Shown: piece after piece, positions 12,093-42,815 of the stretch
Position numbering within the stretch: position 1 is the first letter of the stretch
How the letters are laid out: each line of letters starts with the position of its first letter
Origin: Candidatus Zixiibacteriota bacterium
GTDB taxonomy: Bacteria > Zixibacteria > MSB-5A5 > GN15 > JAAZOE01
Assembly (NCBI GenBank): GCA_023138975.1
Contig: JAGLON010000002.1
Location: forward strand, 202,378-266,377
Direction: 5' to 3'
Length of the DNA: 64,000 nt
Position numbers and translations under genes: made by a program
Notes under the pieces: generated by a model
The model's input: only the letters and a program-made list of their open reading frames with translations
Databases searched by the model: none
Told to the model about the DNA's origin: nothing

Positions 12093-12181
12093 GTAGGGGC
12101 TGGACCAAAGGCCTCATGAACTATGTCAGCCCGAAAGGCTTTGGCAGTGATTTCATCCGGGTCGACAGAGTCGACCCCTAC
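12093..12181. repeat. GTAGG...CCTAC element, long copy 1 of 3
   Basis: Terminal arms GTAGGGG (12093-12099) and CCCCTAC (12175-12181) enclose two inner hairpins: GGGCTG...CAGCCC and the perfect GGGTCGAC-AGA-GTCGACCC (12159-12177). Similarity to copies 2 and 3 continues on both sides: CTGCCGGGCACAG upstream (also in copy 2) and GAAGAATCTATAATGGATTA downstream. Confidence 0.85.
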
Positions 12182-12228
12182 GAAGAATCTATAATGGATT
12201 AATTTTTGGTGGGAACCTCATCAGGTAC

Positions 12229-12248
12229 CCCAAGGCTTTAGCCTTGGG
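12229..12248. repeat. CCCAAGGC/GCCTTGGG hairpin, copy 2
   Basis: Same palindrome and TTTA loop as 12019-12040, again preceded by CAGGTA. Confidence 0.7.
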
Positions 12249-12263
12249 AGGCGGCGGTGACTG

Positions 12264-12304
12264 TACCGCACCCATTGGCTATAGTCCCGCCTGCGAGGGT
12301 GCGA
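12264..12304. repeat. GGCTATAGTCCC hairpin element, copy B
   Basis: Outer arms CGCACCC (12267-12273) and GGGTGCG (12297-12303) enclose TTGGCTATAGT and the inner CCCGC-CT-GCGAG. The arms differ from those of copies A, C and D but still pair, as expected if folding is conserved. Confidence 0.75.
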
Positions 12305-12346
12305 ACAAAAAAGAAATTAGACTGCCGGGCACAGAATAAATCTTCG

Positions 12347-12419
12347 GTAGGGGCTGGGTTTCCCAGCCCGAAAAGACTTTGGCAGTGATTCCATCCGGGT
12401 CGACAGAGTCGACCCCTAC
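12347..12419. repeat. GTAGG...CCTAC element, long copy 2 of 3
   Basis: Same ends (GTAGGGG 12347-12353, CCCCTAC 12413-12419) and same second hairpin as copy 1. The first hairpin has a replaced interior and forms GGGCTGGG-TTT-CCCAGCCC (12351-12369), while copies 1 and 3 carry a longer loop with GGACCAAAGGCCTCATGA. Its downstream flank runs directly into the small lipoprotein gene. Confidence 0.85.
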
Positions 12420-12464
12420 GAAGAATATAGAATGGATTAATATTTTTTGGGTACAGAGAATTCT

Positions 12465-12887
12465 ATGATAAAGTCATTATTACTGTTTGTATCAATTATC
12501 CTCCTCTCCGGATGTATGCCGGTTAAAAAGGAGGAAATATATGGCAAGTATCTGGTCGAATTTCCGTTTGGTAGCCAGACTTTGAAGCTAAATCGTGATG
12601 GAACCTATGAACAAATAGTAATAATAACATGGAATGCCGATACGACAAGACATAACGGCAAATGGAAGTATAGTGATAACTATACGTATATATTATTGTT
12701 TAACGGTTTGTCAGTTGTTGACCCTTACTGTAGTTTGAGAACTAATTATAAGATACCCATTGATGGGATAGTAGTTGCCGCACCGATACAATACTTGCCA
12801 TGGTTCACTATCTCCTTAACTACTGGCTGTGAAGAATACTATTACAAACAGATCGAGTATTTTCCTGATACTAGCAGTACAGAGTAG
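12465..12887 (+). CDS. Small hypothetical lipoprotein enclosed by direct repeats
   Basis: About 140 residues starting at ATG 12465 (MIKSLLLF), with a lipobox LLSGC at about residues 14-18. A TTG 18 bases upstream is in frame but would spoil the signal peptide. The mature part contains LKLNRDGTYEQ and HNGKWKYSD phrases, like those of small lipocalin-like periplasmic proteins, but I assign no function. The gene lies between long-repeat copies 2 and 3. The terminal GTAGGGG of copy 3 supplies the last base of the final Glu codon and the TAG stop, so the original protein may have been longer. It is AT-rich compared with the operon upstream. No clear ribosome site is visible. Confidence 0.55.
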   Translation: MIKSLLLFVSIILLSGCMPVKKEEIYGKYLVEFPFGSQTLKLNRDGTYEQIVIITWNADTTRHNGKWKYSDNYTYILLFNGLSVVDPYCSLRTNYKIPIDGIVVAAPIQYLPWFTISLTTGCEEYYYKQIEYFPDTSSTE

Positions 12888-12972
12888 GGGCTGGACCAAA
12901 GGCCTCATGAACTATGTCAGCCCGAAAGGCTTTGGCAGTGATTCCATCCGGGTCGACAGAGTCGACCCCTAC
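12884..12972. repeat. GTAGG...CCTAC element, long copy 3 of 3
   Basis: Ends GTAGGGG (12884-12890) and CCCCTAC (12966-12972). The interior is nearly identical to copy 1, and the downstream flank is shared to about 12998. The upstream flank present in copies 1 and 2 is missing, and the lipoprotein coding sequence abuts the GTAGGGG terminus exactly. This defines the left boundary of the element. Confidence 0.85.
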
Positions 12973-13059
12973 GAAGAATCTATAATGGATTAATTTTTAG
13001 AAATAAGTTTCCCAAAAAACATCATAGCCATTCAAACTCTCCCTTTGTATAATAGACAG

Positions 13060-14166
13060 ATGATGAACAGACTAACTTTACAAATAACATGCGCTGTGTT
13101 TATCGCACTTTTTCTTCTCCTGCTGACTCCTGTGCGGGCTCAGGATTTGGGCGAAGTTGTTTCAATTCGCTCCATACAAATCGTTTCCGGTATCACAGAA
13201 TCAATCCCATCAGATGAAAACAAAATCGTAGAATACATTGATGAAGTCACTCTCTATGCCATAATAGAAATAGAAAAAAATGATGGTTCGGTGATATTCT
13301 TGTCAGATGCGGACAGTTTTTTTATCGAGGAGAGGAAGGCTGTCGCTGTTCCCATCCAGAATAGCCTCAAAAACTATAATCTTATCTGGTATAAAATAGA
13401 AAATGATGCCAAAAATAAATGGTACTCCAACACCGATCCGACTTGGCACTGGGATGAACTCGATTACAAAGAAACCCTGATTGACGGCATCAGCACACGC
13501 ATCACCGCCGATGTCGCGACCACAATCATATCGGCGACAGGACTCGACGGTAAAGCGGTCGGCACGATGCGGTATCGGGTTAAATTGATTTATAAAGGTC
13601 GGACTTTTTCCTCACCTGGGAAAAACGAGACTTATAAAGGATGTATCTCCGAAGCGGTTCATCGCATTTCCCGCAAGGGCAACTCGGGAAACGAGATTGT
13701 CGATTACGGATTGGCGATGTGCAACAGTCCTTATATCTGGGGGAGTGCCTCATACACCGGAAGTAAATTCGATAATCAAGCCGAGCGGTTTGTCGGTGCG
13801 GACTGCGCTGATTTTGCCGTAGCGGCGGCGCGCATGGCCGGGTATAAAAAACTTCCTTACGGAGGCAGTCGTACTCTGGGACCATACGTAACGAACATCG
13901 CCAGGCCTTCACGGTCAGAAAACGGCCTGTATTATGCGGGTAATAAAAAAGTATCTGTTTCAACGGATGCGGTTCGGCCCGGTGATTTTGTTGTCTGGCC
14001 GGGACATGTGGGGTTGTTCTATAAAGATACCGACCCGATAGGCGTTTTGGATGAAACCGATTTGGTTCTGCATACGCTGTTTGACGAGCCGAAGATTGTC
14101 GGTATCGACGAGGCCTACCCGAAGAGTTTTATTATCTGTCGTCCCAAAGAGTCTCTCAAGTACTAA
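13060..14166 (+). CDS. Secreted NlpC/P60-like cysteine-protease-fold protein
   Basis: Probable periplasmic cysteine hydrolase of about 368 residues, perhaps a peptidoglycan amidase or endopeptidase. A signal peptide (membrane core LQITCAVFIALFLLLL, ending VRAQ) is followed by a 180-residue N-terminal part of unknown fold. The catalytic-type C-terminal domain has the cysteine in GADCADFAVAAARMAG and the histidine in VRPGDFVVWPGHVGLFY, the spacing seen in NlpC/P60 relatives. The usual DCSG is replaced by DCAD. ATG 13060 or 13063 is preferred over TTG 13045. No strong ribosome site is visible. Not obviously in an operon. Confidence 0.6.
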   Translation: MMNRLTLQITCAVFIALFLLLLTPVRAQDLGEVVSIRSIQIVSGITESIPSDENKIVEYIDEVTLYAIIEIEKNDGSVIFLSDADSFFIEERKAVAVPIQNSLKNYNLIWYKIENDAKNKWYSNTDPTWHWDELDYKETLIDGISTRITADVATTIISATGLDGKAVGTMRYRVKLIYKGRTFSSPGKNETYKGCISEAVHRISRKGNSGNEIVDYGLAMCNSPYIWGSASYTGSKFDNQAERFVGADCADFAVAAARMAGYKKLPYGGSRTLGPYVTNIARPSRSENGLYYAGNKKVSVSTDAVRPGDFVVWPGHVGLFYKDTDPIGVLDETDLVLHTLFDEPKIVGIDEAYPKSFIICRPKESLKY

Positions 14167-14236
14167 AAACTACAGGTTTCGATAACTTTCAAATATAATT
14201 ATTATCCATAAACCGCTTTTTACCGTATATTGCTTT

Positions 14237-14863
14237 ATGCCGTTATTAATGCTGTTTTTGACATCTTTCGGAATCGGTTTTTCCGGCGCCCTCATGCCGG
14301 GACCGCTACTGACCGTTGATATTGCCGAATCGACCCGGCGAGGTTTCTGGACCGGACCGATATTGGTTCTCGGTCATGCCATTGCCGAATTGGCGGTCGT
14401 TATCGCTTTGGCGGTGGGGCTGTTAAAGTTCATGAATTCCGATTTGGCCTTTAAAGTAATTGGTCTGGTCGGAGGATTGGCTCTAATCATCATGGGCGGG
14501 ATGATGTTCTATGATATTCTCAGAAATCGCCTCACCCTTGACGATTCCAAACCGGCCTCCGGTTCCGGTCTGTTAATTGGGAAAGGTATTACCACTTCGC
14601 TGTCCAATCCGTACTGGTTTGTCTGGTGGGCCACAGTAGGGTCGGCATTATTGACAAAATCTCTTTCACACGGATTTGTAGGTCCGGCCGTCTTTTATAT
14701 AGGACATATACTTTCGGACCTCGTATGGTACAGTCTGGTCTCTTTCCTGATATCGATTGGAAAGAAATTCTTGGTTGGCAAACCATATATAATATTGATC
14801 TCTTTGTGCGCGTTATTTCTTTTATTTATCGGAGCGACATTTATAATAGACGCGCTGAAGTAG
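14237..14863 (+). CDS. LysE family amino-acid/metabolite exporter
   Basis: Inner-membrane exporter of 208 residues with about six membrane segments. The family signature near the N-terminus, GFSGALMPGPLLTVDIAES, is clear, and SNPYWFVWWATVG is the second conserved block. Members export amino acids or small metabolites such as lysine, threonine or homoserine lactones. The substrate here is unknown. The gene ends 13 bases before the M1-type peptidase gene, so the two may be co-transcribed. A peptidase plus amino-acid exporter pairing is plausible but unproven. Confidence 0.85.
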   Translation: MPLLMLFLTSFGIGFSGALMPGPLLTVDIAESTRRGFWTGPILVLGHAIAELAVVIALAVGLLKFMNSDLAFKVIGLVGGLALIIMGGMMFYDILRNRLTLDDSKPASGSGLLIGKGITTSLSNPYWFVWWATVGSALLTKSLSHGFVGPAVFYIGHILSDLVWYSLVSFLISIGKKFLVGKPYIILISLCALFLLFIGATFIIDALK

Positions 14864-14876
14864 TGAAGGGGATAGG

Positions 14877-17120
14877 ATGAAGCGACCGCTCTATTATTCA
14901 ATAACTTCATTTTTTCTAATCTATTTATTAGCTGTCTCCGCAATCACTATTTCCGCATCAGATTCTTTTCCGGAATTTCCCGGTCTCAATGATAAATTCA
15001 GTTCCAATACCGAAAGCCAGATTATTAAAAGCTGTAGTATCGATTATAACGGCAAAGTACGGTTGAATCTGATTGAGGGCAAAATTCATCGCCGTAGGGA
15101 TTTGGCCAAGCATTATGATTACTATTTTGAAGGACAAGCCGAGCTTATTATTCTTGATTCGCTCAAGCTTGATAATTTATGGAAACGTAAATTCAAGGAA
15201 GAAAACCGCCGGGCCTGTTCTTCGATATACATTTGCGGTCATAATATCCCTCAGCTTTTTGAGTTAGACAAAAACGGCTGGACCGAGGATAAGATATCGG
15301 GCCGAAGCCGTCATAAACTCCAGTTTAAACTAAAAGCCCCCGATAAATACTTCGGCCTTGATCTGGCGGGTGAACTACAATCCTGGTCTGCCAGTGAAAC
15401 TTTCGCTCCGCCAATTTGGATTGACATAAATCTGGGACGAGACGAGCAGTTAGTCGTTTATGTAACGCCCGAAACCAATGAGCAGTTAAACTTATATGTA
15501 TATGATGGTCTGCATGCAACTCCTTATCTGGTTGCTTCGTTTACTCTCAATCATTCTTTGGTAACTCAGCCGGTTTCCATCGATTCAACAATGGTTTCGA
15601 TACTATTAAAAGAATCGGGACGGTTTGAGGCTTCATCAAAAATAGTCTTTGCCAAAGGTACCGATGTGCGTGGGCTGAGTCTGCTGCTGCCGCATTTGTA
15701 CAAAGTCGATTCGGTTTTAGATAAAACCGGTGCAGGACTGGCGTTTGTTAAAAAACATTTTCGAAATGCTCTGTATATTGAACCCAGGGAAAAAGCCTCC
15801 GATAGTATTGACTATCTTACGGTTTTCTATCGAGGAAAGTTTATCAAGGCTCGTTATCAAGGCTATGATTATCCGGCTAATATAACTGGATGGTTCCCGC
15901 ATCTGCACCATAGGAATCTGGGGCAGTTCACCATTAATTACACATATTACAAGGACCTGACCCTAAAATCGGTGGGTACAAAGATCGGTCAATCGGATAG
16001 CGCCGAATTTCGTACCAGTACCTATCAAAGCGACGCCGATATTTCCTATATTAGTTTCGCACTCGGGAAATATGACGTTTACTCCGATACGGCGGCCGGA
16101 GTACCGGTCAGCTTTTATATCGAAAATCAAAACAATATTGGACTGTTTAACCGCGGCATCCCCCAAAAAATACTTAAAGATCTGACCCGATCATTCAAAA
16201 CCTTTCACGACTGGTTTGGCCCTCCGATAGTTACGGAGCTCAATGTTGTGGATCGGATGCATTTTGCCGGGCAAAGCAGTCCCGGATTGATTCATTTGCC
16301 GACCTACGCCATCTTCAATTCCAGGGGACAGTCGCATTTGTGCTCGCATGAGGTGGCTCATCAATGGTGGGGGCATACGGCCGTGCCAAAAACCTATCGG
16401 GAAATGTGGCTATCGGAAGGATTGGCCGAATACACCGCTTTTTTGTACTTGAAAGATGTCAGACAAGATGAGAATGAGTGGCGGGAAGTGGCCGATAATT
16501 GGCGACGGCATGTGACTCAGGTGGGAATGATAGGTGACTTGTATTCACGCGGCTATCGAGCCGGACCAATTACTCTCGGCGGACGATTATATCAGTCATA
16601 TTCTCCCGGTGATTACATCTCTTTGGTCTATGCCAAGGCCGCCTCTATGCTTCGCATGCTCCATTTTGAGATTGACGGGCCAGTTTACCGTACCGATTTC
16701 TTTATCATGATGCTGGCCGAGTACTGCCGCACTTATCACGGGACTGGAGTTACCAGTATTGATTTCATGAAAATTGCGGCTAAAAGATTGGGACAGAAGA
16801 GAGCTCAGCAATTTTTCCAGCAATGGCTTTATGATTGGCGGATCCCCGACTTCGAATGCCGTTATGAAGTAAAGAGGGATGAAAAAAACCGTCCCTATGC
16901 CGAGTTCTCTATTACTGTTTCCGAAGTTGACAGCAGTTTTTCAACTCCGTTTCCGATAGAAATTGAGTTCGAAGACGGGACGAGAGACAGGTTTCGAGTT
17001 GATAACGTCGGACAGCAAGAATTGTTTACTTTAGGGCCGTTTCCCACAGAGATAAAGAAAATTTACTTCGATCCGGACAATATCCTCCTTTACAATAAAA
17101 AGAAAATTATTGAACCGTAG
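14877..17120 (+). CDS. Secreted M1-type (gluzincin) metallopeptidase
   Basis: Zinc aminopeptidase-like protein of 747 residues. It has a signal peptide (about 8-27) and a long N-terminal beta region. The catalytic domain has HEVAH at 491-495 followed after 18 residues by E514, which is the exact HEXXH-X18-E spacing of family M1. The M1 substrate motif GAMEN is not evident; the segment before the active site reads FAGQSSPGLIHLP. The protein may therefore be a non-canonical M1 relative, as is common among secreted bacterial members. Its ATG follows AAGGGG and lies 13 bases after the LysE gene. The C-terminal part is beta-rich. Confidence 0.85.
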   Translation: MKRPLYYSITSFFLIYLLAVSAITISASDSFPEFPGLNDKFSSNTESQIIKSCSIDYNGKVRLNLIEGKIHRRRDLAKHYDYYFEGQAELIILDSLKLDNLWKRKFKEENRRACSSIYICGHNIPQLFELDKNGWTEDKISGRSRHKLQFKLKAPDKYFGLDLAGELQSWSASETFAPPIWIDINLGRDEQLVVYVTPETNEQLNLYVYDGLHATPYLVASFTLNHSLVTQPVSIDSTMVSILLKESGRFEASSKIVFAKGTDVRGLSLLLPHLYKVDSVLDKTGAGLAFVKKHFRNALYIEPREKASDSIDYLTVFYRGKFIKARYQGYDYPANITGWFPHLHHRNLGQFTINYTYYKDLTLKSVGTKIGQSDSAEFRTSTYQSDADISYISFALGKYDVYSDTAAGVPVSFYIENQNNIGLFNRGIPQKILKDLTRSFKTFHDWFGPPIVTELNVVDRMHFAGQSSPGLIHLPTYAIFNSRGQSHLCSHEVAHQWWGHTAVPKTYREMWLSEGLAEYTAFLYLKDVRQDENEWREVADNWRRHVTQVGMIGDLYSRGYRAGPITLGGRLYQSYSPGDYISLVYAKAASMLRMLHFEIDGPVYRTDFFIMMLAEYCRTYHGTGVTSIDFMKIAAKRLGQKRAQQFFQQWLYDWRIPDFECRYEVKRDEKNRPYAEFSITVSEVDSSFSTPFPIEIEFEDGTRDRFRVDNVGQQELFTLGPFPTEIKKIYFDPDNILLYNKKKIIEP

Positions 17121-17211
17121 TCGTTTACGATTTTGTCAAATTAAAAGCTTGAACGATGCCGTATTCTCTTTTACTATAGCTTTAGCCACTATATTAGGAT
17201 AAGAATCTACG

Positions 17212-20646: not shown

Positions 20647-20756
20647 GGATAAAATCGCTTGCTTTTATCGGGTATTACTGTAAACTATTGTGACATCAAT
20701 GCATATAAGGTTTAGATAAAGATTAATCTTCCGGTCATATGCAACATTGGAGTATT

Positions 20757-21332: not shown

Positions 21333-21350
21333 ATAAAGACTGAATTTAAA

Positions 21351-21902: not shown

Positions 21903-21944
21903 CAGGGACGTTGTCCCTCTTTAGATTTTCACTAATATCTCATC

Positions 21945-21983
21945 CCAACCCTGAATGCTATAGTCCCGAACGGAGGGGGTTGG
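21945..21983. repeat. GGCTATAGTCCC hairpin element, copy C (TGCTATAGTCCC variant)
   Basis: Outer arms CCAACCC (21945-21951) and GGGTTGG (21977-21983) enclose TGCTATAGTCCCG. It is followed at once by ACCAAAGGCCTCATGA, a segment also found in the loops of the long repeats at 12.1 and 12.9 kb. It lies at the 3' edge of the minus-strand lipoprotein gene. Confidence 0.7.
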
Positions 21984-22010
21984 ACCAAAGGCCTCATGAG
22001 GGTACCTTGG

Positions 22011-22562: not shown

Positions 22563-22620
22563 CCATTTAACTTCAGCATAGATATTACTTAAATATTTCA
22601 TATTATCGTAAAACCTCGGT

Positions 22621-22638: not shown

Positions 22639-22673
22639 TTGTTTTGTGGGTGGCATCGTTCTGGCACTTTATA

Positions 22674-23090: not shown

Positions 23091-23131
23091 TCTCAGTTTT
23101 GATTATAAACCACTCTTAAGAATACATTTAC

Positions 23132-23168
23132 CTCACCCATCGGCTATAGTCCCGCCTGCGGGGGTGAG
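23132..23168. repeat. GGCTATAGTCCC hairpin element, copy D
   Basis: Outer arms CTCACCC (23132-23138) and GGGTGAG (23162-23168), core GGCTATAGTCCC at 23142-23153, inner hairpin CCCGC-CT-GCGGG. It lies just upstream of the minus-strand orphan gene and is followed by TTGTTTTT. Confidence 0.75.
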
Positions 23169-23330
23169 ATTGTTTTTAATCATTCTGCTGTGTCAATTGT
23201 TTTACCCGATCAATGTCCCGACTATCCCGCTAACATTTTCACTACCAACTTACTACTAATTCAGGATACATCAATATAATAAACGCCATTAAAAAGGGAT
23301 ACCTGTGAAGCTAGCATTATTAAAAAACTT

Positions 23331-23414
23331 CCGTAGGTCAGGATCCCTGTGATCCTGACAATTGCGCTAAGTGCGATAAGTAATCGTCAAGACCACAGGG
23401 GTCTTGACCTACGG
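23331..23414. repeat. GTAGG...CCTAC element with two inner hairpins
   Basis: The ends CCGTAGGTCA (23331-23340) and TGACCTACGG (23405-23414) pair over 10 bp. Inside are GTCAGGATC-CCTGT-GATCCTGAC (23337-23359) and GTCAAGACC-ACAGG-GGTCTTGAC (23386-23408). The two loops, CCTGT and ACAGG, are exact reverse complements. The sequence lies 38 bases beyond the end of the cytochrome-like gene. Confidence 0.85.
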
Positions 23415-23452
23415 CAGCCCTACGGCTAATAATAAAAACACTCTGCCTGAGG

Positions 23453-31450: not shown

Positions 31451-33481
31451 ATGGCACAAGGACGAAGCAATCGAAGTACCACATCTGTTGCAATTGTAGG
31501 TATAGCCTCATTGGTTTTAGTTATGCCTGTGATCGCTGTTTTATTGCCACAAATGCGGGCTTGGGGATTTAATCATCTTAGTTTTCTGCCGGCCGGGTTT
31601 ACCTGGGCTTATGTCTTATTATCTGCCGGTTCTTTGATCCTGTTGTTTAAACCGGGATATGCAGCGCAGGTTTATAATGCTGCCGCAGGCTTTACATTGG
31701 GCGATCAAAACTGGCGGAAATGGTGGATAATCGCGGGTCTGTTTTCGGTTATCTTTTGGCTTTTTCGACTACCGGTTTTTTTACTCGGCGACAGCTATTC
31801 AGCGGTAGCCAATATCTCCAATGATCTTCCAGTTATCTACAAGTGGTCTGAAATTGGCGCGATAGTCATTGTTAATTCATTAGCTCAACTGGTTTCAGGA
31901 CTTACAGACAATCCCGGCTTGTTGTCCTATAATATAATAGCAGTTCTTTCCGGAGGCGTGACGGTATTATTATTCCTGGCCATTGCCTATGAATCAGGTA
32001 ATAATCAGCGGGAGAGAATGCTGGTTTTCGGTCTATCTATTTGTGCCGGATGGGTTTTATTATTTTTTGGTTATACCGAAAACTATCCGGTTCTTTGGCC
32101 GTTTGTTACCGGATACATATTTTTCTCGCTTCGCTATTTGAATAAAAAAGGCAGTCTGATTGTCCCTGCGGTATTTCTGTTGGCCGCATTGATACTTCAC
32201 CTCCAGATATTGTTTTTCCTGTTTTCATTTGCGATAGTACTGTTTTCGCACGGCAAACCTGCTAATTTTTATTACCGTTTCAAAAAAAGTATGATTGCGG
32301 GGTATGCGCTAGTCATCCTAATGGGCGTGATTCTCTTTGCCTGGCTATATCAAAACTCCTTAGAGTTTCGCATATATATTATTCCGTTATTAGGCAGGTC
32401 AGGAATTTCCGGCGAGTATTCTTTACTATCGCTCCGGCATTTAGCCGATATAGGAAATCAATTTATTATCCTCATGCCGATATTTCCGGTGTTACTGGTA
32501 GCAGGGTGGCAAGGTTGGAAAAAACTTACTTCGGATAAAATAAATCAGTTTTTACTGCTGCTTACTCTCGGTAGTCTGGCGTTTTTACTCCTTATTGATC
32601 CCAAGCTTGGTATGGGACGCGACTGGGATCTGTTTGCATTGGCCGGGTTGCCTCCGATGTTGCTGCTTGCTCGCGGCATCATTGCTAAATCGGATAAACT
32701 TGGAAATTATTTTCCAGTAATTATAATTATACTTTTAACTACAATAATGCCGTTTTTTGCGGTAAACCTCGACTATAATGGCGCGATTACTAAATATGAA
32801 TTTTTACTCAATCTTGATTCTTACCGGAGCAGATCTGGCATTACTTCTTTGCGCGAGCATTATTTGGCGCAGGGAAACATTGAGGCGGTCGATAGTCTCA
32901 ATGAAGTTCTGGTAAGCACTTTTCCCTCGACACGGTTAGCGCCATTGGCGTATAACCTTATAGCGATCGGGCGATTTGACGAAGCCAAACTACTTATCGA
33001 CTCAATGGCTATATTAGAACCAAATGCTATTGATGTGTATAATTTACGCGGGACATATTATTTAAAACTTGGTCGAATGAAACAAGCTATAGATGAACTG
33101 CAAATAGCGGCGCGATTGGGTCGATATGATAGCCGGCCGCTGGTAAACCTTGCTCAAGCTTATAGTCAAACCCACCAGTTTGACAAAATGATGACTGTAC
33201 TTCGAGACGCTCAAGCGCGTAATCCGGGCTCGATTCTCGTTGCCGAGGGGTTGGCAACCGGATTTTACGCATTGGCTCAATACGACTCAGCGCTGGTTTA
33301 CAGCGTTAATATGATTGAGTCGGATCCGGCCCAACCATTGGGATATTATTATGCCGGATTCAGCGCCTATAATATGGGGGACAAGCAAACTGCATCTCGA
33401 ATGTTCACCCGGTTTTTAGAATTAGCTCCCTCCCATCTTCAGGCGAGCCAAGTGAAAGAAATAATGCGTATGATGAAATAA
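31451..33481 (+). CDS. Polytopic membrane protein with TPR tail, tandem paralogue 1
   Basis: 676 residues, about ten membrane segments followed by a C-terminal TPR domain (about 490-676). Blocks shared with the two following genes are RAWGFNHLSFLP (36-47), LLGDSYSAVANI (111-122), KWSEIGAI (131-138), FGYTENYPVLWPF (206-218) and IDPKLGMGRDWDLF (382-395). The layout, with membrane segments, an acidic residue in an early outer loop (GDS) and a TPR tail, resembles GT-C glycosyltransferases of the TMTC type. Transfer of sugar from a lipid carrier is a reasonable guess, not shown. It begins 67 bases from the divergent FAD gene. Confidence 0.6.
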   Translation: MAQGRSNRSTTSVAIVGIASLVLVMPVIAVLLPQMRAWGFNHLSFLPAGFTWAYVLLSAGSLILLFKPGYAAQVYNAAAGFTLGDQNWRKWWIIAGLFSVIFWLFRLPVFLLGDSYSAVANISNDLPVIYKWSEIGAIVIVNSLAQLVSGLTDNPGLLSYNIIAVLSGGVTVLLFLAIAYESGNNQRERMLVFGLSICAGWVLLFFGYTENYPVLWPFVTGYIFFSLRYLNKKGSLIVPAVFLLAALILHLQILFFLFSFAIVLFSHGKPANFYYRFKKSMIAGYALVILMGVILFAWLYQNSLEFRIYIIPLLGRSGISGEYSLLSLRHLADIGNQFIILMPIFPVLLVAGWQGWKKLTSDKINQFLLLLTLGSLAFLLLIDPKLGMGRDWDLFALAGLPPMLLLARGIIAKSDKLGNYFPVIIIILLTTIMPFFAVNLDYNGAITKYEFLLNLDSYRSRSGITSLREHYLAQGNIEAVDSLNEVLVSTFPSTRLAPLAYNLIAIGRFDEAKLLIDSMAILEPNAIDVYNLRGTYYLKLGRMKQAIDELQIAARLGRYDSRPLVNLAQAYSQTHQFDKMMTVLRDAQARNPGSILVAEGLATGFYALAQYDSALVYSVNMIESDPAQPLGYYYAGFSAYNMGDKQTASRMFTRFLELAPSHLQASQVKEIMRMMK

Positions 33482-33511
33482 AGTAAAAACCTTTCTCAAA
33501 GGATTGTCGTG

Positions 33512-35545
33512 ATGACCTCACCATCTTCCGACACTCAGACAACAATCAGGCCGGTTATCGCCGGAGCTTTGGCCTGTTTATGGCTTTTGCACTGGCTACC
33601 GTTTTTGTTTCCTCAGGCACGATTCTGGGGGTTTAATCATCTTCTATTCCTTCCGATGTGGGGGCGAGTTGTTTTCACTATCGGAGGATTCTTTTGTCTG
33701 CTTTTATTTTTCAACCCAATAAGACAATTTGCGGGAAGAGCATTTGCTTCGCTGAGCGAGTTCTTATTTGCACATCACCCCAGAGTTCGATGGTCTATCG
33801 TTGGATTGGCTTCCATTGCCATCTTCTGGTTACTTAAGCCGGAATTGTTCTGGCTGGGCGACAGTTACTCGGTCGCGGCGAATATTGGAAATGATTTACC
33901 TGTTATTTATAAGTGGTCTGAAATCGGCGCCATTTATATCGCCAATTTTATTGGCGGTTTATTACCGGGACAATCCGAGGAAGTCGCGAGATTAGCCTAT
34001 GCCATAATTGCGGTAATCTCGGGAGGAGCCTCGGTTTATTTATTCTTTGGAATTGCATCAGAATTATCTGAGGATAATCAATCACGGTTAATGTCCTGGT
34101 GTGTGATGATCTTCGGTGGGTGGATAGTTTTATTCTTCGGCTATACTGAGAACTATCCGGTTCTCTGGCCGTTGATACTCGGATACATTTACTCAGCAAT
34201 TCAGTATTTAAAAGGGAAAAACCTTCTGATAGTCCCGGCCATGTTTTTAATCATGGCTCTGATCATTCATTTGCAAGCGTTGTTTTTTACGCTGTCGTTT
34301 ATGGCGCTGATGTTCTCTCGGGGGAGAGGGGCGAAGTTTTACTACCAGTTTAAAAAAATAATCTGGCTCGGGCTATTTATTATATTTTGTGCGGGAGTTT
34401 TTAGTTTTATTCGATTGTATATGAACTCGCTCGAGTTCAAACTGTACTTGATACCGTTTTTTACTCCGCATGCACCGTCAATTGACTATACTCTTTTCTC
34501 CCTTGCACATTTATTTGATGGTCTAAATCTGCTCTGGCTGATGTCGCCAATTTTACCGCTGTTAATCATTCTCGGGTGGAAGTATCGCAAAGAACTGCTT
34601 AAATCCAAAACTGATCTGTTTTTTGGGCTTATGACAATGGGGGGGATTGTCTTTTTATTTATAATTGATCCCAAGCTGGGAATGGGACGCGATTGGGATC
34701 TGTTTGCTCTTACGGCTCTGATGCCGACATTATGGCTCATTAGAAAAACTCTTAACCAACTACAAAGCAATTATTTCCCTGCCATTGCGGTACTTTGTAT
34801 TGTTCTGACATTCCCGTTTGTATCGGTGCAACTGCAGGAAAAACCGGCGATTGATAATTATCAGTACATGCTGGCGCAGGATATCGAACGTTCACGGACA
34901 GGTCTGGTAATATTGAAAAATTATTATAGTGAAAATAGTAATTTTGCGGCTGCCGATAGTCTGGAGCGCGTTTTAGTAAACTCTTTCCCCCCCCACATAT
35001 TGGTTCCATTAGCCTATAATTATATGGATAACGGGCGGTTACAAGCTGCCAAAGAAATCATTGATTCCATTGTCTATTTAAATCCATACTCGACCGAATC
35101 ATTGAGCCTGCTGGGGATGTATTATTTTAAAATAGGACAGTATCAAAAAGCTCTTCCTTATTTAGAGGCTTCGGCGATGATGGGACGCTATGACAGCCGG
35201 TTATTAGTGACGCTTGGGACAGTTTATAGTAATGACAATCAACATCGAAAGGCGATTGAAGAATTTCAACAAGCTCGCACACTTAATCCCGATTATATCC
35301 CCGTTTACGAAGGGCTCTGTACCTCATATTTTGGTTTGCATGATTATGACTCTTCATATTATTACGCGATGCAGGGCATTCAGCGCGACAGCTCCTTGGC
35401 CAATGCGTATATGATAGCAGGTTTTAGCGCCTATAGAATGAAGAGAAGCGATGCCGCGAAATACTATTTTAAAACATTTCTGGCATTGGCACCAGAAAGC
35501 TCATTCAAAAGCCATGTCGAGAAAACCCTATTGACAATTCGTTAG
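33512..35545 (+). CDS. Polytopic membrane protein with TPR tail, tandem paralogue 2
   Basis: 677 residues from ATG 33512, which has AAAGGA eight bases upstream; a GTG directly before it is in frame. It has the same order of blocks as paralogue 1: RFWGFNHLLFLP, WLGDSYSVAANI, KWSEIGAI, FGYTENYPVLWPL and IDPKLGMGRDWDLF, then TPR units such as YNYMDNGRLQAAKEIIDSI and MYYFKIGQYQKALPYLEAS. The start lies 30 bases after the first gene, so co-transcription is likely. The paralogues are well diverged at nucleotide level, so the duplication is old and all copies appear to be under selection. Confidence 0.6.
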   Translation: MTSPSSDTQTTIRPVIAGALACLWLLHWLPFLFPQARFWGFNHLLFLPMWGRVVFTIGGFFCLLLFFNPIRQFAGRAFASLSEFLFAHHPRVRWSIVGLASIAIFWLLKPELFWLGDSYSVAANIGNDLPVIYKWSEIGAIYIANFIGGLLPGQSEEVARLAYAIIAVISGGASVYLFFGIASELSEDNQSRLMSWCVMIFGGWIVLFFGYTENYPVLWPLILGYIYSAIQYLKGKNLLIVPAMFLIMALIIHLQALFFTLSFMALMFSRGRGAKFYYQFKKIIWLGLFIIFCAGVFSFIRLYMNSLEFKLYLIPFFTPHAPSIDYTLFSLAHLFDGLNLLWLMSPILPLLIILGWKYRKELLKSKTDLFFGLMTMGGIVFLFIIDPKLGMGRDWDLFALTALMPTLWLIRKTLNQLQSNYFPAIAVLCIVLTFPFVSVQLQEKPAIDNYQYMLAQDIERSRTGLVILKNYYSENSNFAAADSLERVLVNSFPPHILVPLAYNYMDNGRLQAAKEIIDSIVYLNPYSTESLSLLGMYYFKIGQYQKALPYLEASAMMGRYDSRLLVTLGTVYSNDNQHRKAIEEFQQARTLNPDYIPVYEGLCTSYFGLHDYDSSYYYAMQGIQRDSSLANAYMIAGFSAYRMKRSDAAKYYFKTFLALAPESSFKSHVEKTLLTIR

Positions 35546-35600
35546 TATTAAGAGTGAGGAAATCTTGACCGGATAAGTTTATATGTGTATTGTGTAACAA

Positions 35601-37643
35601 ATGATGGTATCGAAACCCAAAAATAATCTAATAATTATTCTGGCGCTGTTCCTCTGGAGTTTGCGCTTTATACCATTTATCTGGCCGGATGGCCGATTAT
35701 GGGGATTTAACCATCTGATATTTACCGACGATGCTTTTTTCTATATCTATGCCTTGTCGGGTCTGCTTATTGCCGGAGCTTTAATTCCGGTAGTGAGAAA
35801 TTCTTATTTACTGGCGATGAAATTCCCGGCTCAGTTATTTGAGCGAAGAAACCGGTTTGCATGGGTGCTGTTTTCATTAGCTTCTATGGCTGTTTTCTGG
35901 CTCTTTCGGATGCCGACTAATTTGCTTGGCGATGGCTATGCCGTGATAAACAATATCGGCAATGATATTCCGGTCGTGTTCAAATGGTCCGAAATCGGCG
36001 CTATAAAGATTATCTATTTTGTGTCTCAACTGCTGCCTTATGAGGGACTGGTTAGAGGCGAGTACGCCTATGCGACACTGTCCGTTATATCGGGAGGTAT
36101 AACTGTATACTTCTTCTTTGAAATCGCTTATGAAATAGGTCTCGATAAAGAACGCCGGTTATTGTCATTTTGTCTGCTGTTATTCTCCGGGTGGACGTTA
36201 CTGTTTTTCGGGTATGCGGAGAACTATCCGGTTTTGTGGCCGTTTATCAGCGCATATTTATTTTTCAGTATTCGGTATCTTTCTGATCGCTGTTCGCTTG
36301 TTATTCCTTTGATAATTCTCCTGCTTGCTTTGACCCTGCATCTTCAAATCTTTTTCTTTGCCGGTACCATATTGGTATTGCTGTTTGCTAAAGCAAAAGG
36401 AAGAAAGCTATTCGACCGATTTTCCAAACAAGTTTGGGCAGGTATCATTATTTTGATGCTGGCGGGGATATTATACTTTATCTGGCAATACCAGACTTCG
36501 CTGGGGTTTCAGGTTCATTTCTTGCCGCCGTTTTTTGGTCGGCCGATTGCCCCGGACTATGCGATGTTTTCGCCCATCCATTTTGCGGATATCATAAACC
36601 TGTTATTACTTGTTGTTCCTCTGTTTCCCATACTGGTGGTTGTTTCTATAAAAGGTTTTAAGAATGTCATCAAAGATTCAATAAATCTATTTTTACTCGT
36701 TTTTACTCTCGGTGCGGTAGTTTTTATACTCATCATTGATCCCCGGCTGGGTATGGCACGGGACTGGGATTTATTCGCCCTGAGTTGTCTGGGGCCGGCT
36801 GTGCTGTTCATACGGTTGACGGTTCGGCAACTATCAGATTCTCGTTCAATCCCGGTTCTAATTCTATTGGCTATTATATCTACGGCGCCATATATCGCCT
36901 CTAATACTTCACGAGACTCATCACTGGCGTACTTTGAATCTCTGCTTGAGATGGATAAATCCCGTTCCCGTTCCGGTCTGGTAATGCTGCGAGATTATCT
37001 TAAAAATCAAGGGGAGTCTGAGCGGGCGGTTTCGGTTAATAAATCGCTTATTGAAGCCTTTCCGCAAAGTGAAACTGCGAGCCGGGTGACCCGCCTTCTT
37101 GATGCTCGTCAATACGACAACGCCCTTATTCTGGCGGATTCGATCTATCGTATAAATCCCTTTGTGGTGGATGGCATGAATATGAAGGGGATGTCTTTTT
37201 TACGCCTGCGAGTTTTTGACAGCGCCCTGTACTATCTAAGTCAATCAAGAGAACTGGCGCGCTATGAGCACCGTACTTATGTGAATCTGGCCGAGCTGTA
37301 TGCTAAGACCGGACAAAAAGAAAAAATGTGGGACAACCTTCGTCATGCGCAGCGTTTGAATCCTAATAGTCTTAATGTCATCCAACCGATGGCGATGTCG
37401 TTTTATGCTGACGGTATATATGACTCGGCTTTAGTTTACGGACGCAGACTCCAAAAAATTGCCCCGGAGCACAAAGACGGATATCTTGTAGTCGGGTTGG
37501 CTTCGGTGATTTACAAAGATTTCATCACAGCCAAGGCCAATTTGGTTAAGTATTTGCAGATAGCGCCATCATCACCGCAGAGCGAAGTCGCCCGCAAGAC
37601 ATTGTTGATAGTCGAAGAACGTCTGGGGGGTGCGGGGGGATGA
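35601..37643 (+). CDS. Polytopic membrane protein with TPR tail, tandem paralogue 3
   Basis: 680 residues with the same plan: RLWGFNHLIF, LLGDGYAVINNI (DSY becomes DGY), KWSEIGAI, FGYAENYPVLWPF and IDPRLGMARDWDLF (MGRD becomes MARD). TPR units fill the last 190 residues. The gene follows paralogue 2 after 55 bases and ends in an intrinsic terminator that overlaps its stop codon, so the three genes form a likely operon from 31451. If these are GT-C enzymes, the substitutions near the putative active-site loops could mean different donors or acceptors. Confidence 0.6.
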   Translation: MMVSKPKNNLIIILALFLWSLRFIPFIWPDGRLWGFNHLIFTDDAFFYIYALSGLLIAGALIPVVRNSYLLAMKFPAQLFERRNRFAWVLFSLASMAVFWLFRMPTNLLGDGYAVINNIGNDIPVVFKWSEIGAIKIIYFVSQLLPYEGLVRGEYAYATLSVISGGITVYFFFEIAYEIGLDKERRLLSFCLLLFSGWTLLFFGYAENYPVLWPFISAYLFFSIRYLSDRCSLVIPLIILLLALTLHLQIFFFAGTILVLLFAKAKGRKLFDRFSKQVWAGIIILMLAGILYFIWQYQTSLGFQVHFLPPFFGRPIAPDYAMFSPIHFADIINLLLLVVPLFPILVVVSIKGFKNVIKDSINLFLLVFTLGAVVFILIIDPRLGMARDWDLFALSCLGPAVLFIRLTVRQLSDSRSIPVLILLAIISTAPYIASNTSRDSSLAYFESLLEMDKSRSRSGLVMLRDYLKNQGESERAVSVNKSLIEAFPQSETASRVTRLLDARQYDNALILADSIYRINPFVVDGMNMKGMSFLRLRVFDSALYYLSQSRELARYEHRTYVNLAELYAKTGQKEKMWDNLRHAQRLNPNSLNVIQPMAMSFYADGIYDSALVYGRRLQKIAPEHKDGYLVVGLASVIYKDFITAKANLVKYLQIAPSSPQSEVARKTLLIVEERLGGAGG

Positions 37644-37654
37644 ACCCCCTTTTT
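37635..37654 (+). terminator. Intrinsic terminator overlapping the paralogue 3 stop codon
   Basis: GGGGG-ATGAA-CCCCC followed by TTTTT. The TGA stop lies in the loop at 37641-37643. Confidence 0.7.
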
Positions 37655-37673
37655 GGGCTGTTAAGCAATAAAA

Positions 37674-37749
37674 AAGTAGGTCGAAACCCCTGCGGTTTCG
37701 ACTTATTTCTTTACACGATTGTCAAAACCGCAGGGGTTTTGACCTACTT
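37674..37749. repeat. GTAGG...CCTAC element with two inner hairpins
   Basis: The ends AAGTAGGTC (37674-37682) and GACCTACTT (37741-37749) pair perfectly. Inside are GTCGAAACC-CCTGC-GGTTTCGAC (37680-37702) and GTCAAAACC-GCAGG-GGTTTTGAC (37721-37743). The loops CCTGC and GCAGG are reverse complements, as in the element at 23331. Confidence 0.85.
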
Positions 37750-37785
37750 GACTGAGTCGTCATCGCGTGGACTATAGCTTTAGTA

Positions 37786-37801
37786 GTAGGTTTTGACCTA
37801 C
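37786..37801. repeat. Minimal GTAGGT/ACCTAC hairpin
   Basis: GTAGGT-TTTG-ACCTAC. It looks like a deletion form of the larger element, ends only, lying 37 bases after the full copy. Confidence 0.55.
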
Positions 37802-37831
37802 GTGATCTTAATAGACTCCAATAATTATATC

Positions 37832-37956
37832 CGTCACTGCGAGGAATCCCGCTTGCGGGGTGACGTGGCAGTCTGGTAGTATGAAAACGGCTTATATTTA
37901 CATATGATGAGATTCAAAGACAGATTGCCACACCCCTATCTAGGTTCGCAATGACG
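37832..37956. repeat. Dispersed palindromic repeat (CGTCACTGCGA...TCGCAATGACG)
   Basis: Outer arms of 11 bp with one mismatch (37832-37842 and 37946-37956), inner arms GTGGCAGTCTG (37865-37875) and CAGATTGCCAC (37921-37931), and a CCCGC-TT-GCGGG hairpin. Repeats of this general type are found scattered in many bacterial genomes. The gap 37644-38229 consists almost entirely of such elements. Confidence 0.7.
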
Positions 37957-37996
37957 AAGATAGATTATTTTATTATATTGATGCCTTCGGGATTAG

Positions 37997-38055
37997 TAGT
38001 AGTGTTGGTTTCCATAGGCTATAGTCCCAATATTATTGGGGAACCTGCACTACTA
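37997..38055. repeat. GGCTATAGTCCC hairpin element, copy E
   Basis: Outer arms TAGTAGTG (37997-38004) and CACTACTA (38048-38055), a GGTTTCC/GGGAACC inner pairing, the core GGCTATAGTCCC at 38017-38028 and a CCCAAT-ATT-ATTGGG hairpin. Largest member of the family. Confidence 0.7.
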
Positions 38056-38161
38056 ATTGCCAGCTACCTAAACCAGTATTCGTTGGCGCACGGGGACGTA
38101 CGCCAACCACAAAGTCTTTTTGATCAGATGTAACTCTTTTGATTTATGAATTATTAAAATA

Positions 38162-38188
38162 CCCGGCAGATGTGGACATCCTGCCGGG
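38162..38188 (-). terminator. Probable terminator for the aldehyde dehydrogenase operon
   Basis: CCCGGCAG and CTGCCGGG form an 8-bp stem with an 11-base loop. Read on the minus strand it is followed by TATTTTAATAA. It lies 41 bases after the stop at 38230. Confidence 0.6.
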
Positions 38189-38229
38189 CACATAATCTAT
38201 AGACAGCCAAAAACGGGGTGAAGCTCCCG

Positions 38230-39654: not shown

Positions 39655-39667
39655 AATGTCTCCTGCG

Positions 39668-41314
39668 TCAGATAGGGCAGACGATTTTGCCCAGTTTTTC
39701 TGTTAGTTTTATATTTTCACGATAGTCAACGGCGACCTCGACAACAACCGGTTTCCCGGCCGCAAACGCCTTTTTCAAAGTATCCTGTACATCTTTTGCC
39801 TTTTCAATCCGCATGCCCACCGCGCCGAACGATTCGGCGAATTTTACAAAATCAGGATTGGTGACCTTGGTGGCATATGAATGGCCGTAATGATTTTTTT
39901 GTTTCCATTCGATCAGGCCGTAACTGTTATCATTCCAAATCATGATGACAATCGGCAGCTTGAGCCGGACAGCCGTTTCCAAATCCTGCGAATTCATGAG
40001 GAATCCGCCGTCGCCGCATACGGCTAAGACGTTGCGGTCGGGATAAATCAGCTTGGCTGCCAAGGCGCCGGGGAGAGCGATACCCATTGACGCGAATCCG
40101 TTGGATATTATACAGCTATTAGGTGATTTTGTCACATACATGCGGGCAATCCACATCTTATGGGCGCCGACATCGGAAATCAGGATATCATCGTCAGCGA
40201 GGACACTACGGATATCGTGAATCAGCTTCTGCGGTTTGACCGGGAAGGCGGTGTCGTTATCGTATTCATGGATATCATCCATTATCAATTTGCGATATTT
40301 GGATGCCCAGGTGCCTTTGTCCTGCTCCGTACCGTTAAACTGCTCGTTAAGTTCCCACAACGTACCGGCGATGTCGGCTACGATCTCAACCTCGGGATGA
40401 TAATGCTGGTCAACCTCGGCTTCGGTAAAATCAATATGGATTACTTTCTTGTCTCGGCCGGGGTTCCAGAATGAGGGAGAATATTCAACCAAATCATAGC
40501 CGATGGCGATAATGAGGTCGGCTTCCTCAATCGCACACGAGACATGGTCGCGCGACTGCAGGCCGATGGTTAAAAGATTATAATCATAATCCCAATTGGC
40601 TGCGCCTTTGGCCATGAAAGTATTACAGACCGCGATTTTAATTTTGTCCAGAAACAATTTAAGTTGTTTGGATGCGCGTTTGCGAATGGCGCCGTTCCCG
40701 CACAGGATAAGCGGTTTTTTGGCCGCTTTGATAAGTTCCATCGCCTGATTTATAGCTTTATAATCAGCGGCGGGACGCCGGACTTTTCTGGTTTTCAGAG
40801 AACTACAGTTGTTTCTAACATCCATCTCGGCGATATTTTCGGGTAGTTCCAGATGCGTCGAACCGGGTTTTTCCATTTCAGCCAGTTTGAATGCCTTGCG
40901 CACCGATTCGGAGATAATTTCCGGCTGGTTGATTTGCGTGTTCCATTTGGTAATCGGTTTAAGCATAGATACGATATTGATGTACTGGTGTGATTCCTTG
41001 TGCATACGGTCCGTTGATGCCTGGCCGGTGATGGCCACCAGCGGTGAACGGTCCAAAAAAGCATCAGCAATCGGCGTGATTAAATTTGTAGCGCCGGGGC
41101 CGATTGTCGCCAGACAAACGCCAGCCTTGCCGGTCAGCCGCCCCCATACGTCGGCCATGAAGGCCGCCGTCTGTTCATGACGGGTTAGCACAAATTTTAT
41201 ATCGGATTGGCGCACCGCTTCCAGAAAGGCGATATTTTCCTCACCGGGAAGTCCGAAGATATACTCAACGCCTTCATTTTGGAGACATTGGACAAACAGC
41301 TCAGATGCCTTCAT
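39668..41314 (-). CDS. Acetolactate synthase-like thiamine-diphosphate enzyme
   Basis: Thiamine-diphosphate-dependent enzyme of 548 residues, closest in build to catabolic acetolactate synthase large subunits. The activating glutamate E47 is in LTRHEQTAAFMA, and the cofactor motif begins GDGGFLMNSQDLE and ends WNDN. The QSRDH and GYDLVEY blocks of the middle domain are also typical. No regulatory small subunit (ilvN/ilvH) and no branched-chain amino-acid genes are near, so it may be a catabolic AlsS-type or a different 2-keto-acid carboligase. AAAGG is well placed before the ATG. First gene of the operon with aldehyde dehydrogenase. Confidence 0.85.
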   Translation of the reverse strand: MKASELFVQCLQNEGVEYIFGLPGEENIAFLEAVRQSDIKFVLTRHEQTAAFMADVWGRLTGKAGVCLATIGPGATNLITPIADAFLDRSPLVAITGQASTDRMHKESHQYINIVSMLKPITKWNTQINQPEIISESVRKAFKLAEMEKPGSTHLELPENIAEMDVRNNCSSLKTRKVRRPAADYKAINQAMELIKAAKKPLILCGNGAIRKRASKQLKLFLDKIKIAVCNTFMAKGAANWDYDYNLLTIGLQSRDHVSCAIEEADLIIAIGYDLVEYSPSFWNPGRDKKVIHIDFTEAEVDQHYHPEVEIVADIAGTLWELNEQFNGTEQDKGTWASKYRKLIMDDIHEYDNDTAFPVKPQKLIHDIRSVLADDDILISDVGAHKMWIARMYVTKSPNSCIISNGFASMGIALPGALAAKLIYPDRNVLAVCGDGGFLMNSQDLETAVRLKLPIVIMIWNDNSYGLIEWKQKNHYGHSYATKVTNPDFVKFAESFGAVGMRIEKAKDVQDTLKKAFAAGKPVVVEVAVDYRENIKLTEKLGKIVCPI

Positions 41315-41456
41315 AAATACCTTTCGGAATTAAACCTATTCAGATGTCCTATAATGTATCATTATACTATAGGGGAATGAGATTTTCACTAAAAAGTTCC
41401 ACATTTCTACATTAAGGACGTAAATAGTCCGTTATAGTTATTGCGTTATTACGTAG

Positions 41457-41484
41457 TTGACAACGAACAAGTAATTGCTATTAT
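41457..41484 (+). promoter_or_regulatory. Sigma-70 promoter for the acyl-CoA dehydrogenase gene
   Basis: TTGACA at 41457-41462, a 16-base spacer and TATTAT at 41479-41484, about 40 bases before the ATG at 41525. Confidence 0.6.
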
Positions 41485-41524
41485 GCAAAAGCTTAAGATC
41501 TGAAATTATCGATGAGGTTGATAT

Positions 41525-42730
41525 ATGATTTCCTTTGAATTAACCGACAGTCAGTTGGAAGTCCAGCGCATGGCCCGGGAACTGACCGCTAAAAGAATTA
41601 TCCCCAACATCGCCGAACAGGACCGGGCGCAGGAGTATAATCCTCAGCTTATCAAGGATATGGCTAAAGCGGACCTGCTCGGTTTTTGCCTGCCGGAAAA
41701 ATACGGCGGACTGGGTATGGACTACATTTCGCTGGGGCTGGCTTCGGAAGAACTGGAATATGGTGATACTTCCGCGCGAGTGGTCCTTTCCGTCCATATC
41801 GGGTTGTACTGTCTACCGGTCTGCACCTGGGGCAACGAAGCCCAGAAAGAGAAATATCTGGTACCGTGTGCCAAAGGTGAAAAACTTGCCACGTTCGGGT
41901 TGACCGAACCGGCAGCCGGGTCAGATGCCATCGGGATTCAGACAACCGCCGTCAAGAAAGGTGACAAGTATATTCTCAACGGTGAGAAGATGTGGATATC
42001 GCTGGCTGATGTCGCCGATTATTTTATCGTTTTTGCCTGGCATGATTTAGATAAAAAGAAAGCCCGTGATCACAGTGGATTGTCGGCCTTTATTGTCGAG
42101 CGTGAGTTTGCCGGCGTTACAACCAGTACGATTCACGGAAAACTGGGCGTTCGGGCCGGTAATACCGGGTCGATTGCCTTTACCGATGTTGAAGTCCCTG
42201 CCGAAAACCTTGTGGGCAACGAAGGCGAAGGGTTCAAAATCGCAATGTTTTGCCTCGATCAGGGACGCTACACCGTTGCGGCCGGTTCGACTGGACTAAT
42301 TAAAGCTTGTCGTGACGCCTGTGTGAAATATTCTCATGAACGGGAAACGTTTGGGACGCCGATTGCCAACCATCAACTCGTCAAACAGATGATTGCCAAT
42401 ATGGAAGCCGGGTATGAGTTCTCCCGGCTGCTCTGGTTGAAAGCCGGATGGAAAAAGAATCTGGGCGAACCGAACACGCGTGAGACTTCAATGGCGAAAT
42501 GGATTGCCTGTCGAGAAGCTGAAAAGGCGGCGGCCGAAGCTGTTCAGGTACATGGGGCCTATGGATTCTCAGATGAGTATCCGGTGGAACGGTTTTATCG
42601 TAACTCCAAGGGTGCGTCGATATACGAAGGCACTCGTGAGGTACATACGTTGATGCAGGCTGATTATGTGTTGGGTTTACGTAAGGATAAACCACTCAGG
42701 GTGCATTTACCAATCGTTGAGCAGGGGTGA
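41525..42730 (+). CDS. Acyl-CoA dehydrogenase
   Basis: FAD flavoenzyme of 401 residues that introduces the alpha-beta double bond into acyl-CoA thioesters. Typical blocks are FGLTEPAAGSDAIGIQTTA, GEKMWISLADVADYFIVFA and KIAMFCLDQGRYTVAAGS. The catalytic base is probably E368 in IYEGTREVH. No thiolase, enoyl-CoA hydratase or electron-transfer-flavoprotein genes are beside it. It has its own promoter and ends in a terminator that is part of a palindromic element. Substrate chain length is not predictable. Confidence 0.92.
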   Translation: MISFELTDSQLEVQRMARELTAKRIIPNIAEQDRAQEYNPQLIKDMAKADLLGFCLPEKYGGLGMDYISLGLASEELEYGDTSARVVLSVHIGLYCLPVCTWGNEAQKEKYLVPCAKGEKLATFGLTEPAAGSDAIGIQTTAVKKGDKYILNGEKMWISLADVADYFIVFAWHDLDKKKARDHSGLSAFIVEREFAGVTTSTIHGKLGVRAGNTGSIAFTDVEVPAENLVGNEGEGFKIAMFCLDQGRYTVAAGSTGLIKACRDACVKYSHERETFGTPIANHQLVKQMIANMEAGYEFSRLLWLKAGWKKNLGEPNTRETSMAKWIACREAEKAAAEAVQVHGAYGFSDEYPVERFYRNSKGASIYEGTREVHTLMQADYVLGLRKDKPLRVHLPIVEQG

Positions 42731-42745
42731 GTGAATTTGACACAA

Positions 42746-42815
42746 TTGTAGGGCAGACCTCCCTCAGAAGTCTGCCTTTTTTATTGGTAGATTTTATTGG
42801 AAATCTGCCCTACAA
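42746..42815. repeat. GTAGG...CCTAC element doubling as terminator
   Basis: The ends TTGTAGGGCAGA (42746-42757) and TCTGCCCTACAA (42804-42815) pair over 12 bp. The first inner hairpin GGCAGAC...GTCTGCC (42752-42776) is followed by TTTTTT and is a good plus-strand terminator for the acyl-CoA dehydrogenase gene. The second is GGTAGATTT-TATTGG-AAATCTGCC (42786-42809). It lies between that gene and the putAbiC-type gene. Confidence 0.85.

Follow-up and report, generated by a model that had tools for sequence, protein, structure and literature searches.

GTAG hairpin pairs in a Candidatus Zixiibacteriota genome as probable REPINs of two REP/RAYT systems

A 64,000-nucleotide stretch of the genome of a Candidatus Zixiibacteriota bacterium (contig JAGLON010000002.1, positions 202,378 to 266,377; hereafter the window) contains a set of palindromes that begin with GTAGG and end with CCTAC. 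What are these repeats, and what might move them? The original prediction took them for a single element family in which the shared ends form an outer stem around two hairpins of variable sequence, and compared them to repetitive extragenic palindromic (REP) elements moved by a transposase encoded elsewhere. We find that each copy is a pair of inverted REPs, each consisting of an unpaired GTAG foot and a hairpin. The repeats are very probably REPINs, head-to-head pairs of GTAG REPs and non-autonomous mobile elements of two separate systems of REPs and REP-associated tyrosine transposases (RAYTs) in an uncultured bacterium that, by its RAYT relatives, groups with Candidatus Zixiibacteriota.

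Anatomy of the window repeats

Six paired copies with GTAGG and CCTAC ends are present, within two bases of where they had been placed: 12093-12181, 12347-12419, 12884-12972, 23333-23412 (noted as 23331), 37676-37747 (37674) and 42748-42813 (42746). Apart from 4 bases, these window copies lie outside open reading frames (ORFs). An unpaired GT[AG]G foot stands directly before each hairpin, as defines a GTAG REP, and spacers of 18-27 nucleotides (nt) separate the inverted REPs, as in REPIN doublets. Folding of the DNA rules out an outer GTAGG/CCTAC stem around two hairpins: GTAG and CTAC are left unpaired, and the adjacent GG and CC are the first pairs of the two hairpins themselves.

Nor do the copies form one family. 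Two unrelated families had been mixed, with 42748 as a degenerate third type. Family A REPs (window copies 23333-23412 and 37676-37747) have GTAG, a 9-bp stem and a 5-nt loop, CCTG[CT]. Family B REPs (12093-12181, 12347-12419 and 12884-12972, close copies of one another) have GTAG, an 8-bp stem beginning GGG and a 3-nt loop. All three family B REPINs share the right-half stem GGGTCGAC; in the left halves of 12093 and 12884 a 17-nt insert, GACCAAAGGCCTCATGA, lies at stem position 6/7, and the simple left hairpin is not formed. In single-strand DNA folding, the near identity of its two stems lets 37676, alone among the copies, close into a single long hairpin. The hairpin loops at 23333 (CCTGT/ACAGG) and 37676 (CCTGC/GCAGG) are exact reverse complements, as had been claimed; since the two halves repeat one REP in inverted orientation, this is no separate feature. 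The 'minimal copy' at 37786 is a remnant, with a noise-like score against the family A model (E = 4.9). The individual features are as follows.

12093-12132, plus strand: family B REP, left half of REPIN B-1, with the insert GACCAAAGGCCTCATGA in its stem at 12103-12119; 8 family B REPs carry this insert at that stem position
12159-12181, minus strand: family B REP GTAG GGGTCGAC tct GTCGACCC, right half of REPIN B-1 (family B model R2, E 3e-7)
12347-12369, plus strand: family B REP GTAG GGGCTGGG ttt CCCAGCCC, left half of REPIN B-2 (hairpin scan, model, fold)
12397-12419, minus strand: family B REP GTAG GGGTCGAC tct GTCGACCC, right half of REPIN B-2 (hairpin scan, model, fold)
12884-12923, plus strand: family B REP with the 17-nt insert (12894-12910), left half of REPIN B-3, near-identical to 12093-12132
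12950-12972, minus strand: family B REP GTAG GGGTCGAC tct GTCGACCC, right half of REPIN B-3 (hairpin scan, model)
23333-23359, plus strand: family A REP GTAG GTCAGGATC cctgt GATCCTGAC, left half of REPIN A-1 (family A model R1, E 2e-12; fold)
23386-23412, minus strand: family A REP GTAG GTCAAGACC cctgt GGTCTTGAC, right half of REPIN A-1 (hairpin scan, model, fold)
37676-37702, plus strand: family A REP GTAG GTCGAAACC cctgc GGTTTCGAC, left half of REPIN A-2 (hairpin scan, model, fold)
37721-37747, minus strand: family A REP GTAG GTCAAAACC cctgc GGTTTTGAC, right half of REPIN A-2 (hairpin scan, model, fold)
37770-37801, minus strand: remnant, the 5' arm of a long-loop family A REP, GTAGGTCAAAACC followed by TAC...CTATAG (compare GTAGGTCAAAACTTACCC...CTATAG in locus L317)
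42748-42776, plus strand: degenerate GTAG REP GTAG GGCAGACCTC cctca GAAGTCTGCC, a possible terminator between converging ORFs; resembles GTAGGGCAGAAG units upstream of RAYT genes in relatives' loci L117 and L156
42786-42813, minus strand: degenerate inverted partner of 42748-42776 (fold)

The prediction had called conserved ends with variable interiors notable. The pattern holds, but it is the standard anatomy of GTAG REPs, whose complementary stem subfamilies and head-to-head dimers have been described (Di Nocera et al. 2013, PMC3733652). Those families likewise have an unpaired GTAG beside a 6-13 bp stem, a family-specific loop, several families per genome and RAYT genes with REPs on their flanks. 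The present combinations of stem and loop come from a Zixiibacteriota genome, and the likeness to the 24 published families is one of general anatomy. The REPIN as a unit was described in Pseudomonas fluorescens SBW25 (Bertels and Rainey 2011, PMC3116915), where, as here, two inverted REPs stand a short distance apart, can adopt either two hairpins or a single long one, and are linked to RAYT genes. The present system differs in having tens of copies and few complete REPINs, with two different stems each (too few to test).

Copy number and stem covariation

Are the repeats more than chance palindromes? In the window, the GTAGG-N-CCTAC pattern has 7 matches where 0.55 are expected; one of them, at 51969, lacks hairpins and is a chance match. 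A strong hairpin follows GTAG at 8 sites; Markov-1 sequences average 0.05. When every possible 4-mer is taken as the head of a hairpin, GTAG has 11 hits (the mean over all 256 heads is 0.96) and ranks second; only AAAA, which is 4.5 times as frequent, stands higher.

Genome-wide counts come from pattern, model and region searches of an assembly of 108 contigs that is 93.6% complete. The family A pattern has 17+24 = 41 matches, against 0+0 with a reversed control pattern, and the family A covariance model gives 59 hits with E no higher than 0.01, including several weaker hits that extend over 46-69 bases, as long-loop variants should. Within one mismatch the family B pattern has 13+19 = 32 matches (29 exact), against 0+1 in the control. 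Family A thus has about 41 to 59 copies and family B about 30. The prediction was to fall if copy number did not exceed that of random inverted repeats or if aligned copies lacked compensatory changes; with 41 against 0 and 32 against 1 in the controls, and abundant paired stem changes in both families, it survives on both points.

The paired changes are extensive. Among distinct sequences, 99.1% of stem cells are paired in family A (88.0% with partners shuffled) and 98.7% in family B (80.7%). Both-sided changes are seen in 6 of the 9 stem pairs of family A and 5 of the 8 of family B. Covariation scores are 0.43 against 0.20 shuffled for family A and 0.52 against 0.18 for family B; none of 500 shuffles reaches either value, and slid structures collapse. 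Kinship among copies can inflate these shuffle statistics. The search patterns did not demand exact complementarity at variable positions, where the family A pattern favoured purine-pyrimidine pairs.

Could the copies instead be a single family of miniature inverted-repeat transposable elements, with GTAGG/CCTAC as terminal inverted repeats, free interiors and a DDE transposase? All copies do share their ends while their interiors differ. But single REPs without a partner are common, each half of a pair is itself a GTAG hairpin, GTAG and CTAC stay unpaired in most DNA folds, the two families have unlike stem lengths and loops, and the genome holds cognate HuH genes (below). We regard this explanation as barely credible. 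A further rule that we considered, that the two arms of a REPIN always differ in stem, was dropped: the 4 family A and 2 family B pairs do not make it significant.

Other small repeats lie within or beside these REPs. The 17-nt module GACCAAAGGCCTCATGA occurs in the window at 12103-12119, 12894-12910 and 21982-21999 and has 25 matches genome-wide. It occupies exactly one stem position in 8 family B REPs with two stem backgrounds and is also found outside GTAG REPs; it is apparently a separate small repeat nested in REPs. In some family A REPs (window 37770-37801; L047, L052, L320, L324 and others) an inserted module, TACCC-loop-GGG(C/T)ACTATAG, separates the CCTG loop from the stem arm on its 5' side. 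The CTATAG module is found in other hairpins as well, with 47 matches against 4 in the control, and repeats around CACCCATNGGCTATAGTCCCGC, of the CTATAG group, lie at 5584-5646, 12264-12326 and 23129-23191 of the window.

RAYT genes and their REPs

Which enzymes could serve these repeats? A transposase encoded elsewhere had been proposed, and this fits: the genome has at least 12 RAYT genes, nine with the Y1 transposase domain PF01797 and three divergent ones that PF01797 misses, and none of the 12 lies in the window. The HuH motif, the Y...NP motif and the WQ region of RAYT/TnpA-REP (class 2 HuH) proteins are present, and for both families RAYT genes are flanked by REPs that recur in the genome. 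Near-identical transposase copies of the IS200/IS605 kind are not found: identity to the first RAYT-A gene is 46-51% for three paralogues, and 69% within a RAYT-B pair.

One sequence group among the nine PF01797 genes, RAYT-A, comprises L001, L002, L003 and L007. The first three each lie between inverted family A REPs, feet outwards, near both gene ends, with matching stems and CCTG loops; at L007 the nearby repeats are longer relatives of the family A REP. A RAYT-A protein scores above the cut-off of NF047646 (REP-associated tyrosine transposase). The RAYT-A profile matches E. coli TnpA-REP (PDB 4er8) with E 2.6e-28 over almost its full length, with HxH, WQ and Y...NP motifs aligned, and matches other Y1 transposases in the PDB weakly. 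It differs from the E. coli protein in having WDH where E. coli has WEH, and RAYT-A REPs lack a bulge; compared with E. coli and with the Stenotrophomonas maltophilia and Marinomonas REPtrons (PMC8266576), a REP with a perfect stem resembles the group 3 REPs.

The association recurs in relatives. A collection scan with RAYT-A found 181 relatives, of which the best 80, mostly labelled Candidatus Zixiibacteriota, were kept; in many of their genomes, REPs of this kind but with a different stem flank the gene, most often with one stem on both sides (GTCAGGAGC, GGCAGAACC, GGCAGGATC, GCCAAGACC and others). In 26 distinct REPs from these loci both-sided changes occur in 7 of 9 pairs; only REPs that keep 7 or more of the 9 pairs were included, which biases the percentage paired. 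L009, a PF01797 gene, has a family A REP upstream, and its protein groups by eye with those of L005 and L006; L009 and L006 have a hairpin of the GGCAGATG/GGCAAATG type nearby. A third hairpin family, GTAN CCCANGGC ... GCCNTGGG, lies in the window at 11903-11926, 12016-12039 and 12225-12248 (47 genome matches against 2 in the control), and a further RAYT gene, L008, has related hairpins, CCCATGGC/CCCACGGC, at its flanks.

RAYT-B comprises three ORFs on contig C16 (L219 4899-5405, 12924-13418 and 15485-15772); PF01797 was not usable alone as a RAYT finder, as it missed all of them. Each ORF contains an in-frame family B REP whose GTA is a valine codon directly after the HuH strand (junctions PNHFHAILFL-VGAGSPGPEDS, PNHFHAVLFL-VGVDSVDPEDT and PDHFHAIYFL-VGAGLPGPEDS), and an inverted family B REP lies upstream of the ATG at all three. 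Inside these genes the stems are GGGCCGGG and GGGTCGAC, both of which belong to the most frequent dispersed types of family B.

How would such a system work? TnpA-REP recognises the foot, the loop and a perfect stem, and cuts at CT (PMC8266576). By analogy with the E. coli, Stenotrophomonas and Marinomonas enzymes studied there, each REP would fold as a hairpin when its strand is single, and the HuH/Tyr transposase of the family would recognise the GTAG foot, the loop and a paired stem, whatever the letters of that stem. Cutting would take place next to the REP, at a short site (CT, for instance), and the REPIN would be moved as single-stranded DNA. Family A REPs are presumably cognate to the RAYT-A genes that they flank, and family B REPs to the RAYT-B genes, which carry one in frame inside and one upstream. 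A CT lies at most 7 nt before GTAG in 19 of 30 family B REPs, against a background of 27% (P = 3e-5, the copies not all being independent).

Several observations count against this account. Family A REPs show no excess of upstream CT (33%, background 32%). The best family for RAYT-B is NF047646, yet its proteins score below the NF047646 and Pfam cut-offs, and the third RAYT-B ORF has a TAG stop just past the REP. Under a strict rule there are only six head-to-head dimers (4 family A, 2 family B), many REPs being single. The three family B window copies share flanks and may partly reflect local duplication. Finally, movement is inferred, and the relatives searched included no genome of the same genus and hence offered no pair of empty and filled sites for the window.

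Might the hairpins be kept for a function in RNA, as bidirectional terminators or stabilisers of 3' ends that arose independently and never moved? Two copies, 37676 and 42748, have converging ORFs on either side, and the terminator scan picks out one REP with a T run after it. The claim that one copy serves as a terminator is plausible. What the scan flags is 37702-37680 on the minus strand and not 42748; the left hairpin of 42748 is followed by TTTTTT. A terminator, however, needs neither a fixed GTAG foot nor a family-specific loop, a T run is absent at most copies, and copies flank or occupy cognate RAYT genes with matching stems. An origin in RNA function alone is very improbable; termination can be a secondary role of REPs that belong to REP/RAYT systems.

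A REP inside the transposase gene

Why should a transposase gene contain its own repeat? TnpA-REP subclass 2.4 (Quentin et al. 2018, PMC6006769), which corresponds to RAYT group 4, has been described as having in-frame REPs within the gene, between the HuH and Y motifs, stems whose base consists of three G-C pairs, and double-foot REPs. RAYT-B shares the in-frame REP between HuH and Y in a linker of variable length, stems that start with three G-C pairs and, in its relatives, double-foot REPs. In-gene REPs are thus no new discovery, having been reported there from other phyla. Zixibacteria are not named in that paper, and the match between internal and flanking stems is measured here.

With E limited to 0.001, a search with the RAYT-B protein has matches in 101 of 132 phylum genomes; the weaker matches are other RAYT groups. 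We examined 90 loci, 66 of which have an intact ORF with both motifs (HuH and Y). A GTAG hairpin lies between HuH and Y in 49 of these 66 homologues; 200 codon shuffles average 0.15 and never exceed 2. The internal REPs comprise 41 stem types on both strands and in all reading phases, and therefore the peptide is not what is kept. Their stems tend to follow those of nearby REPs: in 30 loci, the identity of the best match averages 0.89 within a locus against 0.49 between loci, and 2000 permutations stay at or below 0.60. At L246 one and the same REPIN is found upstream of, inside and downstream of the gene. The shortest linkers between HuH and Y (several of 54-62 residues) have no internal REP and the shortest with one has 65, a contrast of filled and empty across genes in which the ranges overlap.

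Two views of the internal REP fit within the REP/RAYT reading. It may be tolerated debris in a flexible linker with no working part, a view to which we give about even chances. PMC6006769 proposes that such REPs are probably harmless; linker length varies, about a quarter of the genes have no REP, so that it is not required, and the encoded peptide is not conserved. Against debris, many internal REPs are undecayed, and their 41 stem variants tend to follow their own flanking REPs, which suggests that they have been renewed recently or are subject to gene conversion or selection. The second view, which we consider possible though rather unlikely, is that the REP is a built-in part: the gene would carry the substrate that its enzyme must recognise, keeping enzyme and repeat in step, or the enzyme would regulate its own gene through the REP. 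Such a role would explain a hairpin kept in either orientation, in any frame and with 41 stems, and the match to its own flanking REPs.

Two other groups of repeats in the window lie in coding sequence. Three adjacent ORFs of 676-680 amino acids at 31451-37643, with common repeats about 2070 bases apart, are likely tandem paralogues, and four adjacent minus-strand ORFs at 54266-60465, with repeated stretches of 69-91% identity, are likely a duplicated protein family.

The REP/REPIN kind and in-gene REPs were known. New are members in a phylum absent from PMC6006769, the pairing of enzymes with repeats, the measured internal/flanking match and the fixed insert modules. The identity of the window palindromes is settled, and the two main families are tied to likely enzymes in a little-studied phylum. 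The RAYT-B set offers more than forty naturally occurring stem variants, each with the transposase gene physically joined to its probable substrate, a ready resource for the study of RAYT-REP recognition and of the co-evolution of REP and enzyme.

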